From Balneolaceae bacterium (lineage in GTDB: Bacteria; Bacteroidota; Rhodothermia; Balneolales; Balneolaceae), in NCBI GenBank assembly GCA_006969905.1, contig CP030887.1, positions 1,054,001 to 1,118,000 on the forward strand: a stretch of DNA of 64,000 nt, read 5' to 3'. A model generated the notes under the pieces. It did not search any database, had not been told where the DNA came from, and saw only the letters and a program-made list of their open reading frames with translations. Positions 17,016 to 52,317 of the stretch are shown in pieces. Every line of letters begins with the position of its first letter. The stretch's first letter is position 1. The position numbers were made by a program, and so were the translations under genes.

Positions 17016-17071
17016 GTCATCCCGAACTTGTTTCGGAATCTTCACAGATGCTGAATCAAGTTCAGCATGAC
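17016..17071. repeat. Paired GTCAT-type palindromes (REPIN-like, gene-less)
   Basis: Two hairpin-forming units in inverted order. Left unit: GTCATCCCGAAC then GTTTCGGAATCTTC; right unit: AGATGCTGAA then TTCAGCATGAC; 2 nt separate them. The whole begins GTCAT and ends ATGAC. The same design recurs elsewhere in the window with different spacers. It lies just after the lpdA stop and before its terminator. Confidence 0.85.
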
Positions 17072-28181: not shown

Positions 28182-28207
28182 GTCATCCTGAACTTGTTTC
28201 AGGATCT
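28182..28207. repeat. GTCAT-type palindromic repeat, single unit
   Basis: GTCATCCTGAACTTG then TTTCAGGATCT, the commonest version of the unit, 55 nt after the recJ stop. Near-identical copies at 30597 and 51731. Confidence 0.85.
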
Positions 28208-30596: not shown

Positions 30597-30622
30597 GTCA
30601 TCCTGAACTTGTTTCAGGATCT
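30597..30622. repeat. GTCAT-type palindromic repeat, single unit
   Basis: Identical over its 26-nt core to the copy at 28182 (GTCATCCTGAACTTG...TTTCAGGATCT). Identity over the full unit indicates recent spread or homogenisation. Confidence 0.85.
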
Positions 30623-34607: not shown

Positions 34608-37600
34608 TGCAAACGCATATTAATAACGTTCGTAAATCAATCAATAAAGCATGGCTTAAGGTAAAGCCCAGTCGTGGTGATATAGATTCATTCAAAAAGA
34701 ATCTCATTTTGTTGATTGATCGCATTAATGAGGACGAATCAGAAGAGCATCATAAAAAGCTTATTTCTGATTTTTTAGAGAGCACCTATTACAGTCCCAA
34801 TTATTATATAAATACCAAAGGCAGAAACGATCAGGTAATACATAATGGGAAGAATCCGGAAAGTACGGTTGGCGTAATTATTGAGGCTAAAAAGCCAACC
34901 AATACTGCGGAGATGCTCTCCAAAGAGAACATCAACACCAAAGCCTTTCAGGAATTGGTACTGTATTATTTGAGGGAGCGTATCACCCATAAAAATCTGG
35001 AAGTAAAACACCTGATTGCTACCAATGCGTATGAGTGGTTTATATTTGATGCCAATGTGTTTGAAAAGCTTTTTGCAAAGAATAAATCGTTCATAAAGCA
35101 ATTTAATGATTTTGAAGCCGGGCGACTATCAGGCACTACCACCGAGTTCTTCTATTCCCAAATTGCTAAGCCGTTTATTGATGGATTATCCCAGGCTATT
35201 GAATTCAGCTGGTTTGATTTAAGAGCGTATGAAAAGCCGCTTCGCAATGAGAACAAAAAAGACGATGCCAAACTCATTGCCCTTTTCAAGTTGTTTTCGC
35301 CGGAACATTTGCTGAAGCTCCCGTTTGCAAACGACAGCAACTCACTCGATTATAAATTCTATAAAGAACTCCTACATCTGATTGGTTTAGAGGAAACCAA
35401 AGACGGCAGCAAGAAAGTAATTAAGCGTACTAAAGCAGAAAATCGACATTCAGGCTCGCTACTGGAAAATACCATCACCCAATTAGATACGATGGATAAA
35501 CTCAGTCGCCTTGAACATCCTTCCAGATTTGGAGAGAACCGACAAGAACGGTTGTTTAATGTAGCGCTGGAGCTTTGTATTACCTGGGTAAACCGAATTT
35601 TATTTCTGAAATTGCTGGAAGCCCAGTTGGTCACCTATCATGGTGGAGATTCTTCTTTTGCCTTCCTGAATCTGAAACGCATTAAAGATTATGACGAGCT
35701 AAACACGCTCTTCTTTATGGTGCTGGCTCGAAAGTTCGAAGACCGTTCAGAGGAAATAAACAACGTATTTGGCAATGTTCCATACCTGAATAGCTCCTTG
35801 TTCGAACCTACCGATTTAGAACAGGATATGGTAGTGATCAGTAATTTGAGAGATAATCGCACACTCCCAATTCTTTCGGGGACGGTTCTAAAAAATGAAA
35901 CGGGTAAGAAGCGAACCGGAGACCTGAATGCTTTAGAATATCTGTTCGCTTTTCTGGATGCTTATGATTTCAGCAGCGAAGGAGCCGAAGACATTCAGGA
36001 GGATAACAAAACGCTCATTAACGCTTCCGTACTGGGGTTGATTTTCGAAAAGATAAACGGCTACAAAGATGGCTCGTTCTTTACTCCGGGTTTCATCACC
36101 ATGTACATGTGCCGCGAAACCATTCGTCGTGCGGTAGTTCAGAAATTTAATGAAGCCAAAGGATGGACATGCGAAACACTGGACGATCTCTACGAAAAGA
36201 TTGAAGACCGTAATGAAGCTAATGAGATTATAAACAGTTTAAAGATTTGTGATCCAGCCGTAGGCTCAGGACACTTCTTAGTTTCGGCGTTGAATGAAAT
36301 ACTTGCCATAAAAAACGATCTGAATATACTGCAGGATCGACAGGGGCGACGACTCAAAGAATACGAGTTGGAAGTAGTGAATGATGAGTTAATCGTCACT
36401 GATGAAGAAGGCGAGTTATTCGAATACCATTTTGCAAGCAAAGAAAGCCAAAGGGTGCAGGAAGCGCTGTTCCACGAAAAGCAGACCATTATTGAAAACT
36501 GTTTATTCGGAGTAGATATCAATCCAAACTCCGTAAAAATATGCCGCCTCCGCCTGTGGATTGAACTACTAAAAAGCGCCTATTACAAAAAAAATGAAGA
36601 AGAAGTCATCCCGCAGCGAAAGCCGGGATCTGGAGCTTCTGATAAACCCGAGACCCCGGAACAAGTCCGGGGTGACAACTCCGGGAAATACCGAAGTCTC
36701 GAAACCCTCCCCAACATCGACATAAACATAAAAACGGGGAACTCGCTCATCAGTAGGTTTGCGCTGGATGCCGACATCAAAGAAGCTCTTAAACGCAGTA
36801 AGTGGAGCATAGACAGTTATCGGGTTGCCGTTGACACCTACCGGAATGCCGAGAACAAAGCGCAGAAAAAAGAAATGGAGAGCTTGATTGAGGATATTAA
36901 AAGCGACTTCCGAACCGAAATTGCCAGCAATGACCCTAAGGTTCTCCGTCTTAAAAAGCTAAGCGATGAACTGGTAAAGCACACTACACAAACCAGTATG
37001 TTTGAGCAGACCGCCAAAGAAAAGAAAGAGTGGAAAAAGAAGAGCGAGAAACTAACCGGGCAGATTAAAAAGCTGGAAACCGAGATTGAGGAAATAAAGA
37101 GCAACAAAATCTATGAAAACGCCTTTGAATGGCGCTTTGAATTCCCGGAAGTACTAAACGACCAGGGCGATTTTGTAGGCTTTGATGTGGTGATAGGGAA
37201 TCCGCCTTATATGCTTATTCAGAACTTATCAAACCACAATATTATTAATCATTATTGTAAAGAATTCGATACCGCTAAGTATAAGCCGGATCTATTTGCA
37301 TTATTTACTGAGCAAGCAATAAAGCTTCAAAAGGAACAAGGAGTACTTTCTTTTATAATACCATACACATGGATGTCAATTCAACAGCATGAACCTTTAC
37401 GGAGAGTATTACTTGATTTTAACTTAGAAATCATTGTTGATTTACCTCAGAAAGTATTTGAGAGCTCAGATTTAGATACTACAATTTTTCTTTTAGAAAA
37501 GAAGAAGGGTTCGAAAGAAATTCATTTTGGAGAAGTAGAAAAAGACAAGATAATTCCTTCTGGATCGCTTTCGGTTAAAAATATAATTCAAAATGAAAGC

Positions 37601-41026: not shown

Positions 41027-41082
41027 CTGTCACCCTGAGCACCATTTTATTTGAAGTTTACTGTTGGGTTGCGAAGGGTCTC
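41027..41082. repeat. GTCAT-type palindromic repeat with expanded loop, next to GIY-YIG gene
   Basis: CTGTCACCCTGAGC on the left and GCGAAGGGTCTC on the right, 30 nt apart. It ends 26 nt beyond the stop of the minus-strand GIY-YIG gene. It forms the outer end of the composite unit 41027-41520. Confidence 0.6.
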
Positions 41083-41108
41083 AAATGTGGAGTTATCAGG
41101 ACTAATTG

Positions 41109-41399
41109 TTAGTGATACCATTCTTCTGATAAATCTCTCCATCCAGGATTTATAGAACGTAGAAGTTTTACCTTCTTCTCTCTTCTCCAACCTTTTAATT
41201 GCTTTTCCCTTTCTAATGCTCTTCCAATGTCGTCAGTTTCTTCATAATAGACTAACTGATGAAGATTAAACTTTTTTGTAAACCCTTCTTTCATTTTATT
41301 TTTGTGTTCATACACTCTTCTTTCCAAATCATTAGTTACTCCAATGTAGAGCATTTTGCTGGTATTGCTAAGCATGTATATATAGTAGGTGTTCCCCAT
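41109..41399 (-). CDS. Small stand-alone GIY-YIG endonuclease
   Basis: 96 residues, a bare GIY-YIG domain of the YhbQ/UPF0213-like kind. Catalytic features: Tyr in YYIYMLSN, YIG in LYIGVTND, the Arg in LERRVYEH, and Glu in ALEREKQLKGW. No DNA-binding module is fused. Shares the YIGVTND, RRV, and REKQLKxW patterns with the second small GIY-YIG gene at 51831; the two are diverged paralogues. It is bracketed by inverted GTCAT-type repeats. Confidence 0.9.
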   Translation of the reverse strand: MGNTYYIYMLSNTSKMLYIGVTNDLERRVYEHKNKMKEGFTKKFNLHQLVYYEETDDIGRALEREKQLKGWRREKKVKLLRSINPGWRDLSEEWYH

Positions 41400-41502
41400 G
41401 ATAATAGGATCGGTTCAGGCTTAATTCCTTACAAAATCCTTTTCAATGAAACGGAAATCATTTTACTTGTCTTATTGAATGAATTGTAGCCCGATTGCTT
41501 TG

Positions 41503-41520
41503 AGATCCTTTAGGATGTCT
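41503..41520. repeat. Degenerate GTCAT-type palindromic repeat
   Basis: AGATCCTTTAGGATGTCT: arms AGATCC and GGATGTC without the usual middle. Lies 103 nt upstream of the start of the minus-strand GIY-YIG gene. Weak on its own; meaningful mainly as the counterpart of the repeat at 41027. Confidence 0.4.
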
Positions 41521-51662: not shown

Positions 51663-51688
51663 AGATGCTGAAATGAATTCAGCATGAC
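51663..51688. repeat. GTCAT-type palindromic repeat (reverse orientation)
   Basis: AGATGCTGAA...TTCAGCATGAC, same inverted form as the right half of the pair at 17016. It lies 43 nt before the forward unit at 51731. Confidence 0.75.
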
Positions 51689-51730: not shown

Positions 51731-51756
51731 GTCATCCTGAACTTGTTTCAGGATCT
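51731..51756. repeat. GTCAT-type palindromic repeat (forward), upstream of GIY-YIG gene
   Basis: GTCATCCTGAACTTG...TTTCAGGATCT, identical in its 26-nt core to the copies at 28182 and 30597. Left end of composite element B; it ends 74 nt before the start of the GIY-YIG gene. Confidence 0.85.
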
Positions 51757-51830
51757 TAAGAGTCGATTTCAAGATTACATTTTCTGTCATCTTTCTGTAA
51801 GGAATAGCCTCAGAAATGATCTAACATAGC

Positions 51831-52121
51831 ATGAGCAAAGGCTATGTTTATTTCCTTACCAACTTTCAAAGAACAACGCTCTACATCGGGGTAACGAACG
51901 ATATTTCCAGAAGAGTTTGGAATCATAAAGAGGGAAAGGGATCAGAATTTACTTCGAAGTACAAGCTTACTATTCTAATTTATGCTGAAGAGTACGATTC
52001 TATTTCCGATGCCATTGCGAGAGAAAAGCAGTTGAAGAATTGGCATAAAGAGTGGAAATGGAATTTGATAAAAGAACATAATCCAAAGCTTAAAGATTGG
52101 TACGAGACTTTAAGATGGTGA
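51831..52121 (+). CDS. Small stand-alone GIY-YIG endonuclease
   Basis: 96 residues, same length as the gene at 41109. Catalytic features: Tyr in GYVYFLTN, YIG in TLYIGVTND, Arg in ISRRVWNHKEG, and Glu in AIAREKQLKNW. The C-terminus is basic and aromatic (WHKEWKWNLIKEHNPKLKDWY), fit for DNA contact. No partner gene. Bracketed by inverted GTCAT-type repeats, the right one starting 31 nt after the stop. Confidence 0.92.
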   Translation: MSKGYVYFLTNFQRTTLYIGVTNDISRRVWNHKEGKGSEFTSKYKLTILIYAEEYDSISDAIAREKQLKNWHKEWKWNLIKEHNPKLKDWYETLRW

Positions 52122-52152
52122 ATTCCTTTATTAAGCTTAAAGCTATTTCGTA

Positions 52153-52178
52153 AGATCCTGAAATGAGTTTAGCATGAC
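52153..52178. repeat. GTCAT-type palindromic repeat (reverse), downstream of GIY-YIG gene
   Basis: AGATCCTGAA...TTTAGCATGAC; one arm ends ATCC and the other GCAT, so the arms are mismatched at one step. Right end of composite element B. Confidence 0.7.
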
Positions 52179-52209: not shown

Positions 52210-52317
52210 GTCATTCCGAACTTGTTTCGGAATCTTCGTTACATCTCACAAAAAACTGTTATCCACTAATCTGATTCAAAGTCTCACCTTAAGATGCTGA
52301 GATAAATTCAGGATGAT
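52210..52317. repeat. Paired GTCAT-type palindromes, gene-less
   Basis: Forward unit GTCATTCCGAAC...GTTTCGGAATCTTC (52210-52237) and reverse unit AGATGCTGAGA...TTCAGGATGAT (52292-52317) with a 54-nt spacer. The same inverted arrangement as at 17016, directly behind composite element B. Confidence 0.7.

Follow-up and report, generated by a model that had tools for sequence, protein, structure and literature searches.

Small GIY-YIG nucleases matched class by class to CGTC-type palindromic repeats in Bacteroidota and other bacteria

Among bacterial palindromic repeats, CGTC REPs constitute one of two large superfamilies and have been reported from Proteobacteria, Chlorobi, Bacteroidetes, Spirochaetes, and Thermotogae (PMC3733652; Di Nocera, De Gregorio, Rocco 2013). 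Each unit is comprised of a CGTC (or TGTC, CCTC) tag, a stem of 8–9 bp starting from AT, a loop of 4–5, and a CCA tail, and most units form head-to-head dimers; Neisseria dRS3 (CGTC-1) and the Rickettsia repeats RPE-6 and RPE-4 are counted among them (PMC3733652). It was stated in the same study that these repeats "apparently lack[s] a dedicated transposase", and GIY-YIG enzymes are unmentioned in its text. The repeats described here share with this superfamily the GTC tag, the AT-starting stem, the head-to-head dimers, and the same host groups, including Neisseria with its dRS3. The difference lies in the enzyme: no dedicated one was found in that study, whereas here the repeat classes can be paired with subtypes of one nuclease family.

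In REPIN/RAYT systems (REPtrons; PMC3116915, PMC6006769), the enzyme gene lies beside its own REP family, gene-less doublets serve as the spreading unit, and enzyme and repeat diversify together, such that each enzyme has its own REP type. A corresponding arrangement, including the one-to-one pairing of enzyme and repeat type, was found here. On the other hand, the RAYT is an IS200/IS605-related HUH/Y1 transposase, its repeats carry a GTAG tag, and one copy per type is described for RAYTs, whereas the enzyme here belongs to the GIY-YIG family, the tag is GTC(AT), and the nuclease genes often occur in several copies, some of them dead. As neither an adjacent HUH enzyme nor a GTAG tag is present, the elements fall outside RAYT/REPIN.

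With regard to the enzyme, two further comparisons apply. Free-standing GIY-YIG homing endonucleases have the same catalytic domain, with conserved Tyr, Arg, His, Glu, and Asn, and a selfish distribution; unlike them, the proteins described here are associated with no intron or intein, are only about 96 residues long, carry no separate DNA-binding domain, and are accompanied by palindromic repeats of their own class. The UPF0213/YhbQ-like proteins (1zg2, 1ywl) are similar in size and domain, but neither a function nor an association with repeats turned up for them, whereas the REP-flanked proteins are multicopy, repeat-matched subtypes.

The analysis started from a 64-kb stretch of DNA (hereafter the window, G000:C1:1054001-1118000, where G000 is the window's genome, which appears to belong to Balneola to judge from its close relatives that bear a name), whose relevant features are as follows.

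17016–17071: gene-less REP dimer with a short spacer (plus-strand arm 17016–17041, minus-strand arm 17046–17071)
28182–28207, plus strand: solitary main-class REP unit, from the motif scan
30597–30622, plus strand: solitary main-class REP unit, from the motif scan
36605–36676: variant-class REP dimer (GTCATCCCGCAGCGAAAGCCGGGATCT / AGACCCCGGAACAAGTCCGGGGTGAC), lying in frame within an ORF
41029–41085, plus strand: degenerate REP arm of the CTGAG..CGAAGG class (GTCACCCTGAG..GCGAAGGGTCTCAAA), beside the second GIY-YIG gene
41109–41399, minus strand: second GIY-YIG gene, of 96 codons and the ERRVYEHKNK subtype, with about 45% identity to the first
41499–41519, minus strand: degenerate opposite REP arm of the second GIY-YIG gene, TTTGAGATCCTTTAGGATGTC
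51663–51688, minus strand: extra main-class REP unit just upstream of the gene-carrying element (GTCATGCTGAATTCATTTCAGCATCT on the minus strand)
51731–51756, plus strand: left REP arm of the gene-carrying element, GTCATCCTGAACTTGTTTCAGGATCT, exact motif match
51797–51825, plus strand: promoter-like stretch GTAAGGAAT-N12-GATCTAAC ahead of the nuclease gene that starts at 51831
51831–52121, plus strand: GIY-YIG nuclease gene, 96 codons, subtype GKGYVYF..KNWHKEWKW, catalytic residues intact
52153–52178, minus strand: right REP arm of the gene-carrying element, AGATCCTGAAATGAGTTTAGCATGAC, partly decayed (3 mismatches)
52210–52317: gene-less, REPIN-like REP dimer (plus-strand arm 52210–52235, decayed minus-strand arm 52292–52317, AGATGCTGAGATAAATTCAGGATGAT)

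Both GIY-YIG proteins of the window match PF01541 at about 3e-15. The stretch ahead of the first gene looks like an ECF-sigma -35/-10 pair (GGAAT / GTC-TTAC in relatives) and may act as a promoter; the corresponding TTTGTAAGGAAT..GTCTTAC is conserved ahead of homologous nuclease genes in Balneola, as read from their flanks. The earlier note on this DNA had placed the 96-codon gene between inverted arms at 51731–52178, and both reading and the motif scan confirm that GTCATCCTGAACTTGTTTCAGGATCT and AGATCCTGAAATGAGTTTAGCATGAC enclose it. Two of the three gene-less inverted pairs that it had named, 17016–17071 and 52210–52317 (the latter with its right arm decayed), also hold, while the third, 36605–36676, belongs to a variant class and lies inside an ORF. 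For the 41-kb gene, described as flanked in the same orientation, the 96-codon GIY-YIG gene and its flanks are real, but the arms belong to another repeat class, of which they are degenerate copies. The strict motif scan did not detect the 41029–41085 arm, and the arms of this gene score 9.5, under the significance threshold when taken alone; they are convincing only because relatives of that nuclease carry the same repeat class.

The variant-class dimer at 36605–36676 spans 72 nt, or 24 codons, and is read in frame within an ORF resembling a DNA methyltransferase (..FGVDINPNSVKICRLRLWIELLKSAYYKKNEEEVIPQRKPGSG..), so that it is no free intergenic element. It recalls the Rickettsia palindromes that are located within genes.

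In the closed 3.49-Mb genome, GTCATNCNGAACTTGTTTCNGNATCT has 62 matches with at most 3 mismatches, compared with 0 for the reversed pattern; the main-class repeats are not a product of chance. These units mostly occur in +/- inverted (head-to-head) pairs with a recurrent offset of 81–83 nt. Each contains a GTC tag, a stem starting with AT, a loop (4–5 in the main class), and a short tail; the main-class hairpin, ATCCTGAA-CTTGT-TTCAGGAT, has a stem of 8 and a loop of 5, and loops are longer in other classes. The GTC tag is preceded by C, T, or other bases, the alphaproteobacterial units reading literally CGTCATCC.., and the tail is ..GGATCCA in alphaproteobacteria, which fits CCA, and CTT or CTG in Balneola. 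By this anatomy, the units of the window are CGTC-type REPs.

Some units have a more complex form. At L066 and L067 (G003:C11:270010-270060; G002:C15), a REP unit has a further REP-like hairpin nested in its loop, GTCATCCTGAAC[CATGTGCTGAACTTGATTCAGTATT]GTTTCAGGATC, which is absent from the G001 ortholog; similar hairpin-in-loop units are present at L126, L149, and L168. Such nesting suggests that a monomer was inserted into the hairpin loop. In addition, the orthologous REP arms of L066, L067, and L069 differ by paired changes on both sides of the stem and in the loop (CCCGAATTTATTTCGGG vs CCTGAACTTGTTTCAGG), as if whole hairpins had been replaced or compensated.

The window's genome contains 14 GIY-YIG matches, mostly small stand-alone genes. 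One gene, at G000:C1:1534777-1535160, has perfect arms, and others in the same genome are flanked by other repeat classes. In the eight-species genus set (G000–G007), 3–12 GIY-YIG matches were counted per genome. When public genomes were scanned for the nuclease subtype of the 51.8-kb gene, 80 loci were recovered across Bacteroidota; the upstream unit has + orientation in 51/80 and - orientation in 10/80, and the downstream unit has - orientation in 51/80 and + orientation in 16/80, against a background of 96 units in 456 kb.

The association was also assessed without any motif, by taking the best alignment, direct or inverted, of the 250 nt before the gene with the 250 nt after it. By this measure, repeats flank 46/67 genes in a phylum-wide sample (4/401 random intervals of the same loci), 21/29 in the genus (0/174), 47/78 in the 80-locus set (3/468), and 6/8 in alphaproteobacteria (0/42). 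Neighbouring ORFs in the 80-locus set are flanked in only 13/284 cases (p 2e-26 against the nuclease genes). The repeats recovered in this way are nearly all CGTC-like and belong to many classes; about 30% of the sampled small GIY-YIG genes have no detectable flanking repeat. The expectation that most small GIY-YIG genes of relatives would be repeat-flanked is thus borne out by the phylum and genus samples, and the predicted non-random orientation by the subtype of the 51.8-kb gene. The same note had located both genes at the position of a dimer's spacer, which is correct for the GKGYVYF subtype, but in several other subtypes the gene sits between two complete REP dimers.

Outside Bacteroidota, a clear-cut module, CGTCATCCTCGGGCTTGACCCGAGGATCCA..gene..GGATCCTCGGGTCAAGCCCGAGGATGACG, occurs in Shinella, and other repeat-flanked alphaproteobacterial genes were found in Sinorhizobium meliloti, Azospirillum lipoferum, Novosphingobium, Sphingobium, Neorhizobium, and Rhizobium CIAT894; PLSDB records served as a source for alphaproteobacteria. 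A GIY-YIG gene lies between dRS3-like units in Neisseria gonorrhoeae and between GTCATTCTGAG..AGAATCT dimers in the cyanobacterium Planktothrix. Repeats are absent beside the genes of Rhizobium tumorigenes and Sinorhizobium C101, and from the immediate flanks in Photobacterium GJ3.

Which repeat accompanies a gene depends on the nuclease. With the flanks sorted into six repeat classes, class changes 13 times on a tree of 98 nucleases, compared with a mean of 54.6 after shuffling (0/200 shuffles as low). As this tree is built from few columns and leaves many forks open, a tree-free class test was added: the same class accompanies the nearest relative from a different host family in 53/76 cases, compared with a null of 14.0 and a maximum of 28 in 5000 shuffles. 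Judged from these sequences, repeat class tracks nuclease subtype, not host. Within the window's genome, this agreement holds for genes of three different classes, each of which shares its class with its nearest relative in another family; for the gene at L003 it does not hold. The CCCGCG..GCGGG class accompanies one nuclease clade across Bacteroidota, Azospirillum, Photobacterium, and Neisseria, its units in Photobacterium lying about 200 nt from the gene and downstream only. Among 247 Bacteroidota genomes, in which the nuclease subtype was counted present at 110 bits or more, at least five cognate REPs occur in 19/20 genomes with the subtype and in 12/227 without a strong match; outside its own family the figures are 4/5 and 10/219 (p 5e-5, a rough value, the genomes being related).

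Gene-less and gene-carrying elements of the window's genome have common inner ends, GATCTTAYGRAAAG on the 3' side and GATCTTTGTRAGG on the 5' side, and the same polarity. Three of the gene-less elements (G000:C1:317471, 720924, and 1803512) contain GIY-YIG gene remnants, one of full length with nine stops. Intact outer arms around dead nuclease genes are as expected of elements moved in trans. It was also observed that L017 (G000:C1:317471) and L062 (G000:C1:3010227) are identical over 91 nt of flank and REP arm; L017 is a complete element of 257 nt whose gene is dead, and L062 is a collapsed palindrome, GTCATCCTGAACTTGTTTCAGGATGAC, with a similar right flank, possibly a footprint of excision or collapse.

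Sites with and without the module were compared at the species level, where the flanks have diverged (73–85% identity at most sites). The L090 gene site measures 931 nt between flank pieces in G003 and about 450 in G000, G005, and G007, and the L068 site measures 930 nt in G007 and 389 in G004. On Shinella plasmids, the REP-gene-REP module lies between amidohydrolase and carbon-nitrogen hydrolase genes in HZN7 and WSC3-e, and the same site is without it in H4-D48, S. sumterensis, PSBB067, XJ20, and Teo12. Only at the L066-L069 locus, set against G004:C33, is the boundary legible, by eye: ..AAGGAC|GTCAT...ATGAC|GTCATTTAG vs ..AAGGATGAAGTCATTTAG. No clear target duplication is seen there, and none is consistent at REP-element boundaries. 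A contig-wide comparison of G003:C11 with G002:C15 gave few REP polymorphisms, most units being shared or without alignable flanks.

One subset of copies has a second, outer set of ends. A TIR element of about 480 nt, with ends TGTAGATGT..ACATCTACA (inverted ends TGTAGATGTnAGGTAATTCGnTGACA), encloses the whole REP-GIY-YIG module at L070, L075, L082, L083, and L091 (G006, G001, G003). At the L101/L075 site, a gain at L101 in G001, this outer element shows a 5-bp GAAAT target duplication, and the REP dimer into which it has inserted belongs to another class. As L101, the clearest gain event in the genus, is the TIR element, some copies move as cargo, and the copies at L070, L075, L082, L083, and L091 were multiplied at least partly aboard a DDE-type element. 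The inverted ends and the duplication of this outer element, which carries one gene-REP module, are shared with DDE-type MITEs, but these features are limited to one subset of copies in a few Balneola species, and most REP-gene modules are without outer ends.

These comparisons also bear on the remaining claims of the earlier note. Module-free sites do occur in related genomes, both in the genus Balneola and on Shinella plasmids. The proposal of a two-tier family agrees with the inner ends common to gene-less and gene-carrying elements, some with dead nuclease genes, and needs amending in that at least one multiplied gene copy is cargo of the DDE-type TIR element. Fixed synteny, which would have spoken against mobility, is confined to a lepA-linked subtype without repeats.

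In 112 repeat-flanked proteins, Y7, Y18, G20, R28, H32, E65, and N84 are nearly invariant. The lepA-linked subtype, present in six species (L013, L079, L080, L084, L085, L086), has no REPs, keeps fixed neighbours, and has R28 replaced by I in 6/6; this vertically inherited branch is likely domesticated and catalytically impaired. The nearest solved relatives by sequence are the UPF0213 proteins PDB 1zg2 and 1ywl, and together with the PF01541 match they settle the fold. A defence role was considered and rejected, as PADLOC gave only a weak homing-endonuclease match.

It is fairly likely that the nuclease is the cognate enzyme acting on CGTC REPs, which would recognise, cut, and spread REP-bounded DNA in trans, in the manner of RAYT/REPIN but with an unrelated enzyme. 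This reading builds on what is seen in the sequences, namely the association, the matching of subtype and repeat across phyla, the co-occurrence, the deleted derivatives with intact ends, the variation in copy number, the presence and absence at orthologous sites, and the intact catalytic residues; REP binding and cleavage, cleavage as the driver of spread, and a nick-and-copy route are what we infer from it. Briefly, each nuclease subtype would recognise its own hairpin class (the GTC tag together with the inner stem and loop) and nick or cut the REP, probably at the foot of an exposed hairpin or cruciform, for example on the lagging strand. The cut could then initiate copying or re-insertion of REP-bounded DNA through repair or replication, and the DNA moved would be the enzyme's own REP-gene-REP module as well as gene-less REP dimers in trans. 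GIY-YIG enzymes hydrolyse DNA, and to our knowledge no strand-transfer activity has been described for them, so that insertion at new sites would need host or other enzymes.

The strongest rival, although unlikely, is homing, by which a free-standing endonuclease cuts a gene-less REP dimer, repair copies the gene in through homology of the arms, and the REPs spread by other means. GIY-YIG enzymes are classical homing endonucleases (PMC1564403), the GKGYVYF subtype has its gene exactly where homing into a dimer would put it, and the matching of subtype and repeat is equally compatible with target specificity. However, the subtypes whose gene lies between two complete dimers do not fit this scheme, some empty sites are without any dimer (G004:C33 at the L066-L069 locus, Shinella PSBB067, XJ20), and homing by itself does not explain why REP copy number depends on the nuclease.

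It is quite improbable that the association is one of hitchhiking only, with inert, insertion-tolerant REPs piling up near GIY-YIG genes because both are intergenic, or with carriage by IS or MITE elements. The five loci inside the TGTAGATGT..ACATCTACA element and the GAAAT duplication at L101/L075 are in its favour, but neighbouring ORFs of the same loci are rarely flanked (13/284), repeat class tracks nuclease subtype across host families, and REPs and nucleases co-occur across genomes. Hardly more can be said for a host-serving role, in which the nuclease would process REP hairpins or cruciforms in replication, recombination, or mRNA/DNA quality control, stay close to its substrate, and take no part in the spread of the repeats. 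Slx1 and UvrC are structure-specific GIY-YIG repair nucleases (PMC1564403) and offer a precedent, and the lepA-linked subtype is fixed and vertical; against this, 3–12 copies per genome, many dead copies, and presence or absence between species look selfish, and it is the fixed subtype that has lost R28. Least probable of all is that a RAYT/TnpA-REP (HUH) transposase moves the REPs and the GIY-YIG gene is its cargo: Y1_Tnp proteins are encoded in 8/8 genus genomes, but the 8 inspected loci have other repeats or none (0/8 with REPs of these classes on their flanks), CGTC units were likewise reported to flank no tyrosine transposase (PMC3733652), and the tag is GTC-AT, not GTAG, so this mover was set aside. 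Some Y1 (HUH) transposases of the genus, at L321-L328, carry flanking repeats of their own, which are not CGTC REPs.

With the nuclease preferred as the enzyme that acts on the repeats, the small GIY-YIG protein probably fills a long-standing gap, as the partner responsible for the spread of one of the two great palindromic-repeat classes of bacteria. The chances are about even that CGTC REPs and nucleases of about 96 residues together constitute a new class of mobile element, with class-specific copying into new sites, present in at least three phyla and convergent with RAYT/REPIN. The repeats and the protein family were each already known; a prior link between them was not found in the open-access literature, and the pairing is new as far as these texts show, although a report elsewhere is possible. 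A nuclease matched class by class is a direct enzyme candidate for the CGTC REPs, and the pairing gives a candidate function to the very common "GIY-YIG nuclease family proteins", so far without one. If true, REP systems would have arisen at least two times, with unrelated enzymes, and the class pairing would provide a natural series of nucleases that differ in hairpin specificity.
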